Shown here one piece after another: positions 9,542 through 47,468 of a stretch of 52,267 nt of DNA (positions are counted from its first letter, which is position 1; each line of letters starts with the position of its first letter). The stretch is from a virus. The stretch lies in the IMG/VR virus record IMGVR_UViG_3300032053_000108, positions 1-52,267 of that record, one strand, 5' to 3'. Both the position numbers and the translations under genes were made by a program. The notes under the pieces were generated by a model, which was not told the DNA's origin, did not search any database, and worked only from the letters and a program-made list of their open reading frames with translations.

Positions 9542-9823
9542 ATGAACTTTAGAGAATGGCTCTTGAACGAAGGGCAAAACATTAGATTTGGTGACTGGTC
9601 TAAAGATGGGACAATAATCGTCTACATTGACAGCACCCGGTACGTTTTTGTGACCGATGCTCTTTACCACCGCCAACTTCAAAAATTGGCATGCTTTAAG
9701 CCTTGGACTGCCTTAAACAAGATCAAAGAGATGGTAAAAAATAAGGCGGCGACCCAAATAGAGCCACCGCCTCAAGAGAGATTGCCTCAAGAAAAACCGC
9801 CAGTTCATGGCACGTTATTTTAA
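9542..9823 (+). CDS. Small protein with capsid-targeting-like N-terminus
   Basis: 93 residues. MNFREWLLNEG is the cleanest example of the F-x-x-W-L-x-x-E motif. Behind it is a compact domain: DGTIIVYIDSTRYVFVTD, then HRQLQKLACFKPWTALNKIK, a beta-rich segment followed by helices seen in many small phage proteins, and a Pro/Gln-rich tail (EPPPQERLPQEKPP). The function is unknown. The 3' end overlaps the convergent amine oxidase gene by 9 bp. Confidence 0.65.
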   Translation: MNFREWLLNEGQNIRFGDWSKDGTIIVYIDSTRYVFVTDALYHRQLQKLACFKPWTALNKIKEMVKNKAATQIEPPPQERLPQEKPPVHGTLF

Positions 9824-11101
9824 TTCTTTGATGATTCTTGCAGCTAAGTCCGAACCAGATGTAACTGCGCCTTCCATGTATCCAATGAACTTATAGCATG
9901 TATGCTCGCCTGCGAAATGCAGATTTCCAATGCCCTGTCTCAAAATTGGACCGAGCTTTGTGATCTCCCCAGGTGCCGGGAAAGAATATCCACACTTCGT
10001 CCAGCGATCAGTTATCCAATTGACCAGTTCACTGCGAACAATAGACTGGTTGATATTTGGATAAAACTCCTCCAACTCATCAAGCAATTCCTTTTCGGCA
10101 TTTACTGATTTTGCAGAATCGCCGCCGCTGAATATCACAATGGCAGAATAATCAACTTGGATTTGACCTTCTGTGCCGTTCCATGTTTCGTTGATTTTCC
10201 TGTCGCCCTTGGCGTTTTGCGACACGTTCTTGTCGATCCAATATTTGCTTTCGACTGCCGAAAGATGCTTGATATTCATGCCCATCTGAGGAGCAAAACC
10301 ATCAGGCAATTCCGGTGTGAAACGAATAGTAGACCACAATGAAGGTGGAATTGCCAATACAACAATATCGGCCTCATGCTTTATGCCATGAGCGTCTACA
10401 ACAACCACATTCGGCTCAGTGATGATCTGCGTTACCGGGCAATTCAAAGTCAATCTAGTGCCTAGTTTTTGAGCAAACTTCAATGCGAACTGTTGGTTGC
10501 CACCCTTGGTGCGGTAGCTTTCGGTATCACTCCAGAATTTATCGAGGCCACCGCCTCGAATCAAAACTAGGTTGCCCAAAAGACTTTGCTTATCAGAGGT
10601 CACGCCGTTGTCACTCGATACCTGAATATCGAACAGATATTTGGCTATTGCCGAAGCATCTTGAGTGTAAATCCATTCTCGCATCGAAATCTGATCCAGA
10701 TATTCGGCTCGTGGAGACAACCAAGGTTGGTTAGCATCAATATCAACAGCCATTTCCGACAACGCATTTTGCATTTTGGATATTTCTGTTTTGATATTTC
10801 CGTATTCTACCTGCGACAATTTTTGTTGCTTCAGGATGATCGGTGTTTCAGCGTCATTATCTTCGGCTTCCAAAAATTCGAGGCCGAACTCAAGAGCGTA
10901 TCCGATCAAGCAATAGTGGTTTGAGCCGATAAGCTCCCCACCAAATTCGACGTTCATGCCAGAGATGAAATCGTCTTTGCTGTATACTCGGACACCAACT
11001 CGGTTGCGAGCTTCCAGAACTTGAACGGTATGACCAGCGGTCATTAGCTCGTATGCACAAGCAAGGCCGGAGAATCCTGCTCCGATTACAATTATTTTCA
11101 T
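9815..11101 (-). CDS. FAD-dependent amine oxidase family protein
   Basis: 428 residues, normal for the monoamine oxidase / protoporphyrinogen oxidase superfamily. Residues 4-19 form the FAD-binding GAGFSGLACAYEL Rossmann motif, followed by VLEARNRVG, the typical E-A-x-x-R-x-G adenine-ribose motif (GGR reads GVR here). The C-terminus GNLHFAGEHTCYKF and GYMEGAVTSG is the second FAD motif. Oxidises an amine or acts as a desaturase; the substrate is not predictable. Rare in phages; it may act in sugar, polyamine or amino-acid modification. No close neighbour on the same strand, so probably its own transcript starting in the 11.1 kb gap. Confidence 0.9.
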   Translation of the reverse strand: MKIIVIGAGFSGLACAYELMTAGHTVQVLEARNRVGVRVYSKDDFISGMNVEFGGELIGSNHYCLIGYALEFGLEFLEAEDNDAETPIILKQQKLSQVEYGNIKTEISKMQNALSEMAVDIDANQPWLSPRAEYLDQISMREWIYTQDASAIAKYLFDIQVSSDNGVTSDKQSLLGNLVLIRGGGLDKFWSDTESYRTKGGNQQFALKFAQKLGTRLTLNCPVTQIITEPNVVVVDAHGIKHEADIVVLAIPPSLWSTIRFTPELPDGFAPQMGMNIKHLSAVESKYWIDKNVSQNAKGDRKINETWNGTEGQIQVDYSAIVIFSGGDSAKSVNAEKELLDELEEFYPNINQSIVRSELVNWITDRWTKCGYSFPAPGEITKLGPILRQGIGNLHFAGEHTCYKFIGYMEGAVTSGSDLAARIIKELK

Positions 11102-11219
11102 GGAATCCTTCCATAGTAAAAGAAATACCCATACTGGTACTACCGTATTTATGCGCTACAACCAAACTAAAAGAAAAAACCTGGGATCAAATGGACGGAA
11201 GCGGTAAAAATACGTTCTA

Positions 11220-11800
11220 TCTGGCTTGATCGAAACGAATTTCGTGTCTAGGATATTGACGCTCGGTGAAATAAGTGCATCCAAATAGCCGAGTGAAAAC
11301 CTTCAATAAGGCATACAGGTCATCGCTGCTGGGATAGAAATATTCCTTCAGATTTCGGACAGCCTTTGATGCTACAGCCCCAATACCCCGGATTGGTTCG
11401 AGGGCCTGATTTACTGGATAGGGTTTCTTCCTCAAAAGAGGTCTTAGGTGGCAATGGGCCGACGTGTAGCGGCTAGTCGGAGAGTAATCTCCGAGGATTG
11501 AATAAGAGCTAGGATTCAACACCCACCAACGGCGTGCCTCGTCGCTCAGATAAACGAGGTTGGGATAAATCACAAAGAAACCGATATAATCCGCTGAACC
11601 TATAATCGCTCCAACGGAAGTTGGGTGTAAATCAGAAAGAGCTTTAGAGCTAACTTATTGTTGGGATTACAGCCGAAATTTTCGGCTATTGTATAAGTGA
11701 CTAATTACAGTTGCTTGTACAATGAATAATCCCAATAATAAGAAGGCTCTTTTAGTTTATAAATAATTATAAGAAGCGTTTGTTGTACACCCAACAAAGA
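11220..11800 (+). ncRNA. Candidate large structured non-coding RNA
   Basis: About 0.8 kb (11102-11916) separates the amine oxidase and polymerase genes without a convincing protein gene. On the + strand it holds a chain of compact hairpins: CGAAA-CGAA-TTTCG (11231-11244), CCTT-CAAT-AAGG (11300-11311), GGGATA-GAAA-TATTCC (11331-11346), CCTC-AAAA-GAGG (11430-11441), GCCG/CGGC (11458-11473), TCGGAGA-GTAA-TCTCCGA (11477-11494), TTGAAT/ATTCAA (11498-11519), CCTCGT/ACGAGG (11537-11559) and CCAAC-GGAA-GTTGG (11611-11624). Three loops are GNRA tetraloops on the + strand; the minus strand gives none at these positions. At the 3' end a long domain is closed by 11620-11629 with 11786-11795 (10 bp), then 11636-11642 with 11746-11752, then 16 bp of 11654-11669 with 11727-11742, enclosing two hairpins (11671-11687 and 11688-11723). 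Large ornate RNAs (GOLLD, ROOL) are known from phages; identity not established. Ends are approximate. Confidence 0.55.
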
Positions 11801-11862
11801 AACAAGAGACAACGAACAGTCTTGCAATCAAAGCGTTTGAGTCTTATACTTAACCAAGAAGG

Positions 11863-11879
11863 GTGCCTTTCATTGGCAC
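11863..11879 (+). promoter_or_regulatory. Conserved leader hairpin before the polymerase gene
   Basis: GTGCC-TTTCATT-GGCAC: a 5-bp stem with a 7-nt loop, ending 38 nt before the polymerase ATG. The same 17 bases occur before the recombinase gene (40025-40041), and a compensated version occurs before the single-strand binding protein gene (38912-38930). Likely an RNA operator bound by a phage regulator, similar in principle to the autogenous operators of T4 gp43 and gp32. Confidence 0.6.
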
Positions 11880-11916
11880 ACTGCCAAGGATGTCATAAAC
11901 CGCATGATTGAGACAC

Positions 11917-13227
11917 ATGGACCACTCGCAACTGGCAAAGGCTCTTACCGATACGGTGGGGCCAAATGTGTTTATCTGTTTCCAGCCGGAAGTGCTTGAC
12001 TTCACGGATCGGGCAGTCGTACCTGAATTGCAAATATTCAGTTCGAGTGGGCAAATCAAAGTTATGCTCACGGACGAAGTTTTGCCGATACTCTTGCCAA
12101 TGTTGCGGCTGAGTATTTTTGGAAAGAGCAACAAGATTGTCGCTTGGAATTGGAAGAACCTCGTAAGTTTCATTCTGGCCAAGACTGGCAAGACGTATCC
12201 CGTCGATGGGGCAATTATTGACTTGAAGATAATCGAAACTTATTGCGGGCGCAAGTTCAATGTTCCGAAGACACTGATCGAGGCAATGAACAGACTGAAA
12301 GACCTCATCACCACTGGTATGTGGAAAGAGGTTGAGACGGTTTATCGCAAGGTTCATATACCGCTCATCACTACGGTCATCCCTCATCTCGAAACTGTTG
12401 GCATCCTCAATACGCAAATCGGCAATAGGGTCTATGCGTATTACGAAATTAACGGCCAGGAAAATGGTCGTCTGAAATGTTCTGGCGAGTATCAGCAGGG
12501 CTATGTCCCGCACGCCATGAAGCCGGAGACACGGCAGGTTCTCAAGCCTCGCTCTGAGAGCGATCTGTTCATGGTTTTTGATTACAAGGGCATGGAAGTC
12601 TTCATGCTGGCCTGGATGAGCAAAGACCCGCTATTGCAGGAGTTTTGCCGGGAGCCGGATGTTTATGTTGCCCTTTACGAGAAAATCACCGGCAAGGAAT
12701 GCGAAGGAAAAAATGATCGTGAAATGGCGAAAAAATTCTTTCTGCCGGTTATATATGGACAGTCGGCTTATTCATTAAGTCAACGCTGCGGTGTCGCCCT
12801 GGATGTCGCAGAGATTATTGTAGAACGCATTGACGCTTTGTTTCCGGTTGCTTTGGCCTTCATCGAGGGTTATCAGAAGCAGCTTCAAGAACTCGGATAT
12901 GCCAAAGACATCTTTGGCAAACGCCGTTCAAGTTTCGAGGAAGGCAAAGAATATTCTGTCAGAAACTTCGCAGTTCAATCACCGGCATCCGTCGTGTGTT
13001 TGGAAAAGTTATCCCACCTATATTTCGCACTCAAAGATAAAACCGACCTCGCCTACACCGTCCATGACGGTTACGCTGTGTATGCAACGAAGGAGAACTG
13101 GAAAGCCATAGCAAAACTTGGCCGAGATGTTCTTACTGGCGAGTCAGATTTATGCCCCGGTTTACGGCTCAGAGTAACTTGCCGTGCTGGTCGCAACCTT
13201 GATGATCTGAAGTTACTCCGCACCTAG
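11917..13227 (+). CDS. Short family A DNA polymerase with altered motif C
   Basis: 436 residues from ATG 11917 (TTG 11908 is possible; a stop lies directly upstream). Family A landmarks in order: GRLKCSGEYQQGYVP (about 185-199, equivalent to TGRLSS..P..Q.IP), motif A FMVFDYKGMEVFMLAW with catalytic Asp 222 and the Glu kept, motif B REMAKKFFLPVIYG (268-281) and motif C TVHDGYAVY (382-390). Motif C reads H-D-G where most family members have H-D-E, and the O-helix position usually Phe/Tyr is Leu. The N-terminal 150 residues look like a shrunken 3'-5' exonuclease domain without its acidic residues, so proofreading is probably absent. T4 relatives use a family B polymerase, so this replisome is unusual. 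Preceded by a conserved hairpin; followed 7 bp later by the next gene. Confidence 0.85.
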   Translation: MDHSQLAKALTDTVGPNVFICFQPEVLDFTDRAVVPELQIFSSSGQIKVMLTDEVLPILLPMLRLSIFGKSNKIVAWNWKNLVSFILAKTGKTYPVDGAIIDLKIIETYCGRKFNVPKTLIEAMNRLKDLITTGMWKEVETVYRKVHIPLITTVIPHLETVGILNTQIGNRVYAYYEINGQENGRLKCSGEYQQGYVPHAMKPETRQVLKPRSESDLFMVFDYKGMEVFMLAWMSKDPLLQEFCREPDVYVALYEKITGKECEGKNDREMAKKFFLPVIYGQSAYSLSQRCGVALDVAEIIVERIDALFPVALAFIEGYQKQLQELGYAKDIFGKRRSSFEEGKEYSVRNFAVQSPASVVCLEKLSHLYFALKDKTDLAYTVHDGYAVYATKENWKAIAKLGRDVLTGESDLCPGLRLRVTCRAGRNLDDLKLLRT

Positions 13228-13234
13228 AGGACCA

Positions 13235-13792
13235 ATGTTAGACATTTGCATAAATTACAGCATTAACGAAGAAGAGTACCTAGAGCTTGAACATCGTTTC
13301 GGTCGCCTCTGTTGGCACGCCGCACACGAACTCAAGAAGAAGAACTCTCGCAACAACTACACCGATGATCCCGAAGACATCAAGCAAGAACTCCAGATGT
13401 CTATGCTCAGAGCCGGTAGCTATTACAAGCGACAGATATACATTGAAAAATGTCTTGCCGTGGCAAAGAAACATGCCACCGACGAGCTTATGCAGCATAT
13501 CATACAAGAGCTAGAGAACTTGTGGGCTAACCGAACTCGACATGGCGCAAACCGCCAGAAGTTCGGGACGTTCCAAGAACAGCTTCTCCAGAAGATCGTT
13601 CGGCAAATTGTTCCGAAAGAGGAGAGGCCCAATAAGAAAGAGAACTTGAAGATTGACGCCAAGTTCGCTACTTATTGCAAAGCCATTGTCTGGAATGGGC
13701 AGAAAAGCATGGGTAAGAAGATAACTAGAGAGAAAGCAATCCGATCTGGCCAAGTAAGCCTTTCTGAATTCGATTACTTGGGTACGGTATAA
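13235..13792 (+). CDS. Hypothetical protein, possibly sigma-factor-like
   Basis: 185 residues, ATG preceded by TAGAGGACC, 7 bp after the polymerase. Residues 15-75 resemble region 2 of sigma factors: FGRLCWHAAHELKKKN, then DDPEDIKQELQMSMLRAGSY, a helix with the acidic D-x-x-Q-E motif. The C-terminus (GQKSMGKKITREKA, SLSEFDYLG) is basic and may touch DNA. T4 late sigma gp55 is of similar size, so a late-transcription sigma is a reasonable guess but not secure. The whole protein is helical and lacks catalytic motifs. Confidence 0.4.
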   Translation: MLDICINYSINEEEYLELEHRFGRLCWHAAHELKKKNSRNNYTDDPEDIKQELQMSMLRAGSYYKRQIYIEKCLAVAKKHATDELMQHIIQELENLWANRTRHGANRQKFGTFQEQLLQKIVRQIVPKEERPNKKENLKIDAKFATYCKAIVWNGQKSMGKKITREKAIRSGQVSLSEFDYLGTV

Positions 13793-23827: not shown

Positions 23828-24670
23828 ATGTACAATGGCTACAAAGTAGTAGTTGCTACGCCCGCTGGCAGACAGAGATTTTTGGAAATCCTTTTGCGGC
23901 ATTCTTTGTGCAATCGTGACGTGATTGATCGTCACGATTTGTGGCTTAACACAACTGTTCCAAGCGATATTGATTTTATTCACAGGGCAGCAAGAGCTTA
24001 TCCTGATTATTTCAACATTGTCCATCCCATTGAACCTCTGGCCAACAGGCCAGTGGAGTCAATAGCTCAGTTTTACCGTAATTGCATTGATGAAGACACC
24101 ATATACATTAAACTTGATGATGATGTTTGCTACATCTGTCCTGACGCACTAAGACACTTGGTTGAGTTTAGGGTGGCGCACCCAGAAGCATTTCTCATTT
24201 ACCCAATTGTGATTTGCACCGGGATGGAATGGGTATTAGATGTTTTTCGTCCGGTTGCTCGATGGAAGCGATCATTTAAGAATTGCAACTTAGAACATAT
24301 TCGCCGTCATGTCGAGTTTCTGTCTGACCCTACAGCAGATCGTTATCTTTGTGAGCCATATCTGATACCATCAGACCTTAGTATAAGCATAAACTGCATT
24401 AGTTGGATGGGCAAGGACTTCGCATCTTTTGGTGGCAATGTCCCTGCTTGGCCGGTATATGATGAGGATTGGTTGACGCTGACAAAGACAAAAGAAATGG
24501 GCAGGCCCAATTACATAAATGGCTCTAGCGTCATGGTTCATTTCAGCTATACTCACGGCGGAACCATGAAATTCTTAGAAGACTTCACCGATTTACGTCA
24601 GAGGTATTTAGAACTAGCCCTAGAAATATGTCCCAAACTGCTCCCGGCTCAAATCAAATTTTTTGTATAG
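23828..24670 (+). CDS. GT-A type glycosyltransferase
   Basis: 280 residues; starts 3 nt after the methyltransferase stop. VVVATPAGRQRFLEILLRHS at the N-terminus and TIYIKLDDDVCYICPDALRH (about 92-110) with the metal-binding D-D-D are typical of the GT-A fold. VYDEDWLTLT near the C-terminus supplies the catalytic-type acidic patch. Inverting or retaining mechanism cannot be told. Overlaps the convergent carbamoyltransferase gene by 22 bp. Confidence 0.75.
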   Translation: MYNGYKVVVATPAGRQRFLEILLRHSLCNRDVIDRHDLWLNTTVPSDIDFIHRAARAYPDYFNIVHPIEPLANRPVESIAQFYRNCIDEDTIYIKLDDDVCYICPDALRHLVEFRVAHPEAFLIYPIVICTGMEWVLDVFRPVARWKRSFKNCNLEHIRRHVEFLSDPTADRYLCEPYLIPSDLSISINCISWMGKDFASFGGNVPAWPVYDEDWLTLTKTKEMGRPNYINGSSVMVHFSYTHGGTMKFLEDFTDLRQRYLELALEICPKLLPAQIKFFV

Positions 24671-26352
24671 AATTTATTTTCAATCGCCGCACAATCTAAT
24701 TTGGTGTCCATAACTAAGTTCAAAATTACTTGAATGTTATTGGCAATTGGTTTATTGCGATCATTAAGAGAAGTGTTGAGAAGTATAGGCACCCCTGTTT
24801 TTGCTTCTACGCTTTTCAATAATTTATACAACAATTGATTTTCATCTCTGCTAACAGTTTGCAATCTTGCTGTGTTATCAACATGCGTTACGGCTGGAAT
24901 GAGTGCTTGTTTATCGCTTTTGACAACAGGACATTCAAGCATATAAGGTTGTGGGTGGTCGATTTCAAACCAATCTTTCGCAGATTCTAATGTACAGATT
25001 GGCGCAAATGGTCGCCAAAATTCTCTATGTTTAACTTTTTCATTGATAACATCTTTCATCTTTGCTGGAGATGGCAAGCAGAATATGCTTCTGTTTCCAA
25101 GCGATCTTGGACCAATTTCGCTTCGTCCTTGCGCCCACGCAATAATTTTTCCAGCCATTAGCTTTTCAGTTGTTTTCTCTATCAATTCGTCTTCAGTTAA
25201 TTCAACTGCGTTCAATGATTTTGAATGAGATTCATTTTGTCCAAGTAAACTATCTCCAAGATAAGGTGTGTGATTTTTACGACCTTGAAAATCGTTCCCA
25301 AGAATATTGTGCCAATAATACAAACCAGCCCCGATAGACAATCCACTGTCTGAGCAAGCAGGTGGGATGTATAATTTTTCAATTGCTTTTTCTTGAATTA
25401 TTCTTGTGTTTGCTTGGCAGTTTAATGCACATCCTCCACTAAGACACATTTTGTCTTGCTCATAAATCGTTCCCAATTTCTTGACAGTTTCAACCATATA
25501 CAATTCAACTTCATCTTGAATTGTAGCCATTAAATCTTGCGCTGATTTTGATCGTGGGTCGTCAAAAGTCATAGTCATAGACATAGTAGACTTTAGAGTT
25601 TCGATTGTCGCTTTTGTTGTTGCCCAAACACCAAGCTCGTCATCATAACCAGATATATCATTTGGAAATAATACATCTCTAACATTTTTTCGCCAATGAT
25701 CTACCGGCTTGCCATACGAAGATAATCCCATTGCTTTGCCTGCGGCTCCTAATGGATCAAAGCCTAAAAATGGAAAAAGACGACCAAGACAACTGTATGT
25801 TATTCCAATATTGTTATAGGCAATGTCATCTTTGTTGTCCCAATTCGTATTTCCAAAATAAGTCAACTTGTTTTTTTCACCCAACCCATAAGCTGTATTT
25901 GTCGCAAAATCTCCACGACCATCTATTGCCAACAATGCACTTTGATTAAATGGACTTGTGTAATATGAATAAGCCATATGATTGACGTGATGTGTAACAG
26001 CAACAAATGTTCTTTTTCTTCCACGCCATATAGACGACCACATTGAATATGGCTGCGATAAACTCCTTTTGTACTGCATTCCTGTTACAATGTCTTTGAA
26101 CTCTGATTTAGACCAATCGCCGCCACTCCAAGGATACAATCCACCCATAACTATCGTTTGTATGTCTTCAATATTCCACCCAAGCCGATTCAGAACAATG
26201 TCTACTGATTCAGCGATTTCATTATTGAACGACGACCCACAAAAATGCTTTTTGTTATAGTATCTTTCAAGTTCAAAGTGCATAACAATTTCAGCACCAT
26301 CAAAAGCTGTAACGCTTGAATCATGACCGTTGTGAATCGAAATGTATTTCAT
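24649..26352 (-). CDS. NodU/CmcH-family carbamoyltransferase
   Basis: 567 residues, full length for the family. N-terminal Kae1-like ATPase fold: SIHNGHDSSVTAFDG, then VTHHVNHMAYSYYTSPF (the metal-binding His), ALLAIDGRGD, and CLSGGCALNCQANTRI. C-terminal YrdC-like/carbamoyltransferase part: AWAQGRSEIGPRSLGNRSIF, REFWRPFAPI, PILLNTSLNDRNKP. These enzymes use carbamoyl phosphate and ATP to O-carbamoylate a sugar, as in nodulation factors or aminoglycosides. In phages related genes decorate glycans or nucleotides. Its base composition is more AT-rich than its neighbours, a possible sign of acquisition. Overlaps the upstream gene by 4 bp. Confidence 0.9.
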   Translation of the reverse strand: MKYISIHNGHDSSVTAFDGAEIVMHFELERYYNKKHFCGSSFNNEIAESVDIVLNRLGWNIEDIQTIVMGGLYPWSGGDWSKSEFKDIVTGMQYKRSLSQPYSMWSSIWRGRKRTFVAVTHHVNHMAYSYYTSPFNQSALLAIDGRGDFATNTAYGLGEKNKLTYFGNTNWDNKDDIAYNNIGITYSCLGRLFPFLGFDPLGAAGKAMGLSSYGKPVDHWRKNVRDVLFPNDISGYDDELGVWATTKATIETLKSTMSMTMTFDDPRSKSAQDLMATIQDEVELYMVETVKKLGTIYEQDKMCLSGGCALNCQANTRIIQEKAIEKLYIPPACSDSGLSIGAGLYYWHNILGNDFQGRKNHTPYLGDSLLGQNESHSKSLNAVELTEDELIEKTTEKLMAGKIIAWAQGRSEIGPRSLGNRSIFCLPSPAKMKDVINEKVKHREFWRPFAPICTLESAKDWFEIDHPQPYMLECPVVKSDKQALIPAVTHVDNTARLQTVSRDENQLLYKLLKSVEAKTGVPILLNTSLNDRNKPIANNIQVILNLVMDTKLDCAAIENKFYTKNLI

Positions 26353-45891: not shown

Positions 45892-46198
45892 CGGCCTTCA
45901 CCAATGCCCTCATTATATTTTTTGCACCAACGGCATTCTTGGAATGTACTGCCCAGGTCAATCGGGGCAGATTGCCATGATACGCTTGTTCCTCGATCCA
46001 ATTGGCTACGTCCATGCCAGTACCGGCGATGGGTGGTCCAAGGTCATGATCGAGAGAGACAAACGTAACTTGGCCTTGGTTCAGGTAGGCAATCGCTACG
46101 TCAGCAGTTTTTGCCCAAACTTCGTCACCCTCGGCCCCAAAAATACTTTGAATTTTGGGGTCACGAGGATCACGTTCATCGTCCAGCCAGAGTTTCAT
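45860..46198 (-). CDS. Cyclic-phosphate-processing receiver-like (cPPR) protein
   Basis: 112 residues from ATG 46198 (GTG 46201 possible). Fits the cyclic-phosphate-processing receiver fold: KLWLDDERDPRDPKIQ (Asp pair at the start), then AIAYLNQGQVTFVSLDHDLG, the SLDHDLG signature, GTGMDVANWIEEQAYHGNLP, and a late WAVHSKNAVGAKNIM with H-S-x-N. Receiver-like domains of this type were predicted to act on cyclic phosphate ends of RNA. Overlaps the CCA-adding enzyme gene by 23 bp and the 2H gene by 32 bp, so the three are translated as one unit. Confidence 0.75.
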   Translation of the reverse strand: MKLWLDDERDPRDPKIQSIFGAEGDEVWAKTADVAIAYLNQGQVTFVSLDHDLGPPIAGTGMDVANWIEEQAYHGNLPRLTWAVHSKNAVGAKNIMRALVKADEFWDAAAQE

Positions 46199-47468
46199 CA
46201 CTAGACCTCTGATAAGCAGCCGATTCAGCCCCGCTCATTGCGTCACTGATCGCTTTGCCTTTTAGGTGCATGAAGTCTTGTGACCTCACGGTGGGTTGGT
46301 AATTCAGGAAGTGTTGAAGTTCCGCTTCCTTGCCAGAGATTCTAGCGAAATCCAATACGTCCGTCGTTAGGACTTCTTGTCCTGCCGCTTGAAGTTTTGG
46401 ATTTTCCAGTTGCTTGTGCAAGTCTCGGTGCTTCAACAGTTGAGCTACCTGCGACACGTCGAATCGGTACAGTCTGACCAGAAAGGAAGTTGCATCAGAA
46501 ACATCGTTGGCGTACTTGAGGCGATTGAGTTGGATGCGGACGGCTTTAGGGTCGTCTTGCTTCAACAGCCATGCAAGGACAGCTTTGATGTTCTTGATGT
46601 TTCCAATACGATCTACATCGTGCATATCGACTTGAAGACCAGGGAATACTGCGGGCAGCAATCCGGTGGCTTCGTAGTTCCTCAGATAGTTGACCGGGCT
46701 GGCCGCTTTCTGAAGACCGCCAGTGAACTCGGCGGCAATACGTTCTGGAGACACACCAGCTAGGTCTTTGAATTCTTTAATGGCCGCTAGGGTGTCTTTA
46801 TCCAGATGTTGCATGATGTATCCAGGATTGAAGCGTGAGAAGAACCGAACAAGTCGGGGGATTCTCAGCTTGTCTTCTTGGAAGCGATCACGAGCATTTC
46901 CTACAGGTCGGTGAACAAGATTTTTGATGTCATGCAGCCCTTGTCCTTCTCCTTCGTGGTTCAGGTTGTAGTCCCTGATTTCCTTCTTGTGAATATCGTA
47001 GAACAGAGCGTTGTAGGTCAGGTCACGACGTTGAGCGTCCTTGGCCGGAGTGCTGAAGCTCACGGAGTCAGGACGCCGCCCATCGGTGTATTGACCGTCT
47101 TCTCGGAAGGTGGCGATCTCGTATTCTTCTCCGTCAACAACGGCAGAAATAACTCCGAAAGCCTCGCCTTTCGGAAAGGTTTTGATGCCGTGCGAAAGAG
47201 CAGCCGGACTCCCCAAGATCGCCATCACTTTTTCTGGCGGTGCTTCAGTGGCAAGGTCTACGTCCTTCGGAGAGAATTTTCCCCCATGATGGTGGGAGTA
47301 GAGAAAATCACGGATTACTCCACCCACAGCAAACAACGAGGCTCCCTGACGAGCAAAAAGCTCGCTGAGGGTATACACCGCTGCGGGGAGCGGAATATCT
47401 GCCTTCATGCTGTGAAATTTTTCTTCCACGGTTTCTAAAAACCCCCTAAATTTAAGCTGTGCGACCAT
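46176..47468 (-). CDS. CCA-adding / poly(A) polymerase-type nucleotidyltransferase
   Basis: 430 residues, full length for class II tRNA nucleotidyltransferases. Motifs: FAVGGVIRDFL (49-54, GG-x-x-RD), DVDLAT (69-74, catalytic Asp pair), GQYTDGRRPDSVSFS, AKDAQRRDLTYNALFYD (RRD 147-149), FQEDKLRIPRLVRFFSRF (neck helix E-D-x-L-R-I-x-R). The C-terminal helical domain follows. Adds CCA or A residues to RNA 3' ends, most likely to tRNAs. N-terminus MVAQLKFRGFLETVEEKF has the F-x-x-F-L-E pattern similar to the capsid-targeting-like motif. Head of the RNA repair-like operon; ATG preceded by GGGGAAAATC. Confidence 0.85.
   Translation of the reverse strand: MVAQLKFRGFLETVEEKFHSMKADIPLPAAVYTLSELFARQGASLFAVGGVIRDFLYSHHHGGKFSPKDVDLATEAPPEKVMAILGSPAALSHGIKTFPKGEAFGVISAVVDGEEYEIATFREDGQYTDGRRPDSVSFSTPAKDAQRRDLTYNALFYDIHKKEIRDYNLNHEGEGQGLHDIKNLVHRPVGNARDRFQEDKLRIPRLVRFFSRFNPGYIMQHLDKDTLAAIKEFKDLAGVSPERIAAEFTGGLQKAASPVNYLRNYEATGLLPAVFPGLQVDMHDVDRIGNIKNIKAVLAWLLKQDDPKAVRIQLNRLKYANDVSDATSFLVRLYRFDVSQVAQLLKHRDLHKQLENPKLQAAGQEVLTTDVLDFARISGKEAELQHFLNYQPTVRSQDFMHLKGKAISDAMSGAESAAYQRSSDETLAGR

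Follow-up and report, generated by a model that had tools for sequence, protein, structure and literature searches.

A likely structured RNA beside the DNA polymerase gene of a huge phage and its probable kinship with a covarying RNA family at the same locus

Introduction

Priming transcripts linked to a replication origin exist, ColE1 RNA II being one example. Large phage RNAs on record are few, and what the best-studied of them, GOLLD and ROOL, do is still open. ROOL is a large structured RNA of 659 nt in the solved example and is often found near tRNA islands, and GOLLD, also a large phage RNA, is often longer than 800 nt and situated near tRNAs, the function being open in both cases (PMC12286853). 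In the present study, a noncoding region of the window (the whole stretch of 52,267 nt of viral DNA that was analysed) was compared with these RNAs and with the equivalent region of related phages. The window belongs to the genome of a huge phage; among its closest relatives are a 223-kb and a 98-kb contig, whose family-A DNA polymerase (polA) proteins are 98% and 89% identical to that of the window, respectively. The region itself had no match by blastn among the INPHARED phages.

Results

The noncoding gap upstream of polA

A noncoding gap of approximately 0.8 kb (11102-11907), bounded by genes ending at 11101 and starting at 11908, is present among otherwise packed genes, as the initial annotation had described, and contains no conserved frame. 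The proposed RNA and the genes on either side of the gap are as follows.

9815-11101, minus strand: amine-oxidase-like gene, forming the upstream edge of the gap and divergent from polA
11200-11800, plus strand: proposed structured RNA, approximate extent (fold z -5.9; conserved in L004 and L005/L006; without coding signal)
11908-13227, plus strand: polA, 439 aa (Pfam DNA_pol_A, 8e-26; PHROG DNA polymerase)

The only sizeable frame inside the gap is an antisense ORF of 118 aa (11217-11573, minus strand). Substitutions at its three codon positions numbered 3/6/3 in L004 and 15/17/10 in L006, with no third-position bias in either comparison, and the frame is broken by two in-frame stops in L004 and by frameshifts in L006. 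A protein-coding gene at 11217-11573 was ruled out on these grounds, and the conserved protein frame that the initial annotation had named as evidence against an RNA was thus found to be interrupted in both relatives.

Several neighbouring observations were also made. Short invariant blocks, e.g. GGAAGCGGTAAAAATAC, lie at 11140-11220 just 5' of the RNA in the cluster formed by the window and its relatives and might be a regulatory or 5' RNA element. Downstream of polA, a 185-aa protein (13235-13792) without a clear Pfam or PHROG family was found near polA in all 46 of the 46 loci compared. Along with the amine-oxidase-like gene, the window encodes a carbamoyltransferase (24649-26352) and a poly(A) polymerase/CCA-adding-like enzyme (46176-47468).

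Folding and conservation in the window cluster

The structural features recognised on the plus strand are listed below.

11260-11295, plus strand: long-looped stem CGCUCGG/CCGAGUG; in L006, one C-G pair is replaced by U-A, a compensatory change on both sides
11400-11607, plus strand: ultra-conserved core, approximately 97% identity with L006, against 87% for the polA gene
11478-11493, plus strand: GUAA-tetraloop hairpin CGGAGA-GUAA-UCUCCG, seen in the alignment, with the loop GCAA in all relatives
11611-11624 (also given as 11610-11625), plus strand: GGAA-capped hairpin CCAAC-GGAA-GUUGG; three compensatory changes, each two-sided, with the loop invariant
11639-11758, plus strand: extremely stable 3' stem domain that encloses two hairpins

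The plus strand of 11200-11810 reached a minimum free energy of -187.7 kcal/mol, compared with -154.9 +/- 5.6 kcal/mol for shuffles (z -5.9), and the minus strand scored z -3.6. The region as a whole folds better than shuffled sequence, but nearly all of the excess lies in the 3' stem domain (z -10.2 for 11630-11760), and no folding beyond that of shuffles was observed in 11400-11600 (z 0.03) or 11215-11400 (z 0.17). The consensus fold of three relatives scored similarly on the plus (z -5.9) and minus (z -5.3) strands, so folding alone leaves the strand unsettled. Of the three GNRA loops reported initially, GGAA is invariant and GUAA is replaced by GCAA, still a GNRA loop, in all relatives, but the GAAA loop is not conserved; judged from the alignment, the two conserved loops would favour the plus strand.

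Hairpins claimed at the outset, including the GUAA and GGAA hairpins, are present, as are the long stems of the proposed 3' multi-branched domain. Covariation among relatives was observed in part of this structure. In the GGAA hairpin, CCAAC/GUUGG is replaced by UACCC/GGGUG with the loop unchanged. In L006, the stem at 11260-11295 gains its single compensatory change, but the 10-bp arm closing the multi-branched domain (11620-11629 with 11786-11795), which forms 10 of 10 pairs in the window, retains 6 of 10 in this 85%-identical relative. A switch between the two, as originally proposed, is not supported, given that the closing arm is not conserved while compensatory changes preserve the GGAA hairpin competing with it. 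The core, which is conserved with weak nested pairing, would suit an RNA held together by tertiary contacts or proteins, and equally a DNA element. A 17-mer taken from the core gave only chance coding matches outside the cluster. Taken together, a structured RNA in the window is considered likely.

A covarying RNA family upstream of polA

Polymerase-based searches yielded 80 loci, which were then dereplicated. A noncoding gap of approximately 0.4-1 kb was observed directly upstream of the same family-A polA in 41 distinct huge-phage sequences, and both the adjacency to polA and the orientation are strictly kept in all carriers. Alignment of the gaps revealed a common RNA. First, a four-way junction (model R1) is present in at least 22 distinct sequences, with a covariation of 0.494 compared with 0.200 +/- 0.016 in shuffled controls and 0.06-0.10 with slid partners. 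Second, a domain consisting of helices E and D (model R2) showed a covariation of 0.466 compared with 0.274 after shuffling. Third, a GCYGA strand of the E/D domain forms a pseudoknot with UCRGC a few hundred nucleotides downstream, beside a conserved CUCGGU-like element; in a count for which a run of N linked the two strands, the central position pairs as C-G in eight sequences, U-A in seven, and A-U in one, with no exception. When the junction was sought as a DNA pattern alone, without any protein, 21 contigs were recovered, nine of them beyond the protein search, and polA adjoins the match in 21/21.

Members beyond the 22 are weaker: L099 has a marginal R1 match in the right place (E 0.004), L036, L037, and L039 have R2 matches (E 0.003-0.04), and several more, e.g. 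L126 and L137, rest on motif scores or inspection. L048 and L110 gave no convincing sign of the family RNA. One carrier contig, L058 (RXKI01000130.1), belongs to a metagenome-assembled genome binned as Neisseriaceae, which might be either a clue to the host or a binning error.

A structured RNA in this family is well supported. None of the 20 members searched against Rfam had a match, and the view that the RNA, provisionally named the polA-locus RNA, is a class new to Rfam is supported. The open-access literature searched, a collection with few preprints or subscription journals, yielded no description of it.

The copy in the window

The window has a noncoding region within the 0.4-1 kb range directly upstream of its family-A polymerase gene. 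In the polA tree, the window and two relatives are nested among the carriers, as sister to L058/L033/L089/L065/L067/L132 with support 98/95. One candidate trace of the family structure was observed.

11308-11366, plus strand: candidate remnant of the E/D domain, AAGGC-AUAC-AGGUCAUCGCUG...CAGAUUUCGGA-CA-GCCUU (R2 match, motif score)

The best R2 match in the gap (11317-11361, AGGUCAUCGCUG...CAGAUUUCGGA, flanked by AAGGC/GCCUU) reached 7.6 bits (E 0.22) and is not significant over the whole window; the corresponding score in L031 was 9.6 bits, and the first half of the candidate in L031, AGGUAAUCGCUG, recurs unchanged in L058, a member of the sister group. Compared with shuffles, a combined motif-and-helix score had p values of 0.023 (window) and 0.011 (L031), for a motif that was sought after the match had been seen. 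No match to the R1 junction model was obtained in the window (the top score over 1 kb, with the filters switched off, was 6.2 bits, E 0.32), and the CUCGGU-like 3' element of the pseudoknot was not found by pattern in the last 330 nt of the gap.

Further candidates were rejected. When the 223-kb and 98-kb relatives were scanned in full with R1, matches of 16 and 12 bits appeared in places not homologous to each other and were taken as chance, a 5' "A element" in the window was not supported in L031, and a circular permutation of the family order does not fit the order of elements as judged by eye.

In the Rfam search of the window, there was no match at the gathering threshold and nothing credible at E<=10; the group I/II intron models gave only a 17.7-bit fragment against a cutoff of 55.2. 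The window contains no tRNA genes.

GC skew and promoter-like sites

Skew consistent with bidirectional replication has been reported in approximately 30% of huge phages (PMC7162821). In four large carriers of the RNA, the detrended cumulative GC skew reaches its minimum no more than 1.5 kb from the locus (148.0 vs 149.3, 80.0 vs 78.5, 71.0 vs 70.7, and 513.0 vs 513.3 kb), and in G014 it lies at 88.0 kb with the locus at 88.1 kb. The strand-corrected skew change at third codon positions across the locus is significant in G003, G004, G005, and G015 and weaker in G006 and G014. For G001, the nearest large relative of the window, the raw skew is not significant, and the strand-corrected change has p 0.007 at 40 kb and is not significant at 80 kb. 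Several of these contigs (e.g. G005 and G001) carry polA on their minus strand, so gene orientation alone is insufficient to account for the skew. The polA locus is the skew-predicted replication origin in most of the large contigs tested.

Among the RNA-less controls (G011, G012, and G013), the minimum is at polA in two of three, that of G012 lying elsewhere, and the strand-corrected change is present in all three. A link to the origin that is specific to the RNA was thereby ruled out, and the locus is the predicted origin with or without the RNA. Judging by the signature of these controls, the origin of this group of phages may be marked by polA itself.

Promoter-like sites are present upstream of the family RNA in 12/21 sequences (3.5 expected) and between the RNA and polA in 16/41 (6.0 expected); an earlier, simpler promoter test near polA gave a weak result. 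A site of the latter kind was observed in the window.

11822-11850, plus strand: promoter-like TTGCAA-17-TATACT between the RNA and polA, conserved in cluster relatives

The window RNA itself showed no clear promoter. Promoter-like sites would favour a transcript separate from polA, consensus matches being weak evidence.

Discussion

Herein, we propose that the gap encodes a standalone plus-strand structured RNA gene of approximately 600 nt that belongs to a huge phage's replication module, likely a diverged polA-locus RNA, a reading that we hold with moderate confidence. The RNA would be transcribed separately from polA, would fold compactly around the rigid 3' stem domain, and might act in trans or as a ribonucleoprotein, playing a structural part in phage DNA replication near the predicted origin. 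Its location is the basis on which we infer such a role in replication.

Among the alternatives, control of polymerase synthesis in cis by a 5' leader of polA, whether an attenuator, a riboswitch, or an autoregulatory element, survives best, and we regard it as rather unlikely. The strict adjacency to polA with the same orientation in all carriers is what such a leader would show, but leaders are seldom as large as 400-600 nt with both a junction and a pseudoknot, and the promoter-like sites between the RNA and polA also argue against it, although consensus matches are weak evidence either way. A DNA-level replication origin, in which protein-binding sites and DNA hairpins rather than an RNA explain the conservation, appears more doubtful. 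The position of the locus at the predicted origin, a core conserved without excess folding, and the similar consensus folds of both strands are all consistent with such an element; two-sided compensatory changes with GNRA loops kept, covariation of the family junction and pseudoknot over long distances, and the skew signature retained by RNA-less relatives that have no such element are not. An ordinary intergenic region with one strong stem and the remains of an old gene would explain why the fold signal comes mostly from one stem domain and why a 118-aa antisense ORF exists, but it is improbable when the core is more conserved than polA, the frame is broken and lacks third-position bias, compensatory changes occur, and the same slot is noncoding in relatives. 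The GOLLD or ROOL identity suggested initially, or a group I/II intron, is highly improbable in spite of the size, phage origin, and ornate appearance of the region, as neither the window at the gathering threshold or at E<=10 nor the 20 relatives matched Rfam, and the tRNA neighbourhood is absent.

A strongly covarying RNA of approximately 500-600 nt recurs in huge-phage contigs from many samples, always beside the same polymerase gene and at the predicted origin, and is absent from both Rfam and the isolated-phage collection searched. This fixed position provides a concrete, testable link to phage DNA replication. In a wider and more speculative interpretation, which we put forward as doubtful, the polA-locus RNA is a widespread huge-phage class acting at the replication origin, e.g. 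as a primer or scaffold for the short family-A polymerase, and in some RNA-less lineages a second polymerase-like protein serves instead; if true, RNA and protein would be alternative solutions for starting replication.

In some RNA-less relatives, an ORF of approximately 390 aa abuts polA in the place of the RNA (L053:3826-5010, L050:3844-5007, L138:1781-2956, L054:3708-4919, and L027:4841-6004). This ORF has no Pfam or PHROG match and carries the conserved motifs DIxNSQPLL and TIHDSIL; its low-confidence structural model (pLDDT 65) shows a weak resemblance to DNA polymerase I folds (E 2.5e-4, TM approximately 0.3). It might possibly be a second family-A-like polymerase.

Comparison with known systems

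The initial annotation had offered a new class as the other possibility, and this idea holds for the RNA family at the polA locus, but the copy in the window is not hit by the four-way-junction model and its membership is no more than probable. The two are alike in occupying the same slot upstream of polA, in their similar size, and in a very stable 3' stem, and the window is nested among carriers in the polA tree with a possible E/D motif; in contrast, the junction, the pseudoknot strands, and the 3' CUCGGU-like element are all undetected in the window. The window RNA is not filed as a family member because these defining features were looked for and not found, and it is probably a strongly diverged member of the polA-locus RNA.

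Compared with the large ornate phage RNAs, the window RNA would be similarly big and elaborate, and by the tests made here it belongs to none of them. Like ROOL, it would be a large structured phage RNA, but it has no Rfam match and no tRNA nearby and is fixed beside polA. The same likeness in size and phage origin applies to GOLLD, which differs in often exceeding 800 nt and lying near tRNAs and whose Rfam model the window RNA does not match. With ColE1 RNA II, the relation would be one of analogy, in that both would be structured transcripts made at an origin of replication; for sequence relations to priming transcripts, the analysis covered Rfam. Any priming by the phage RNA would be hypothetical, and unlike the ColE1 system, RNA-less phage relatives seem to use the same locus.
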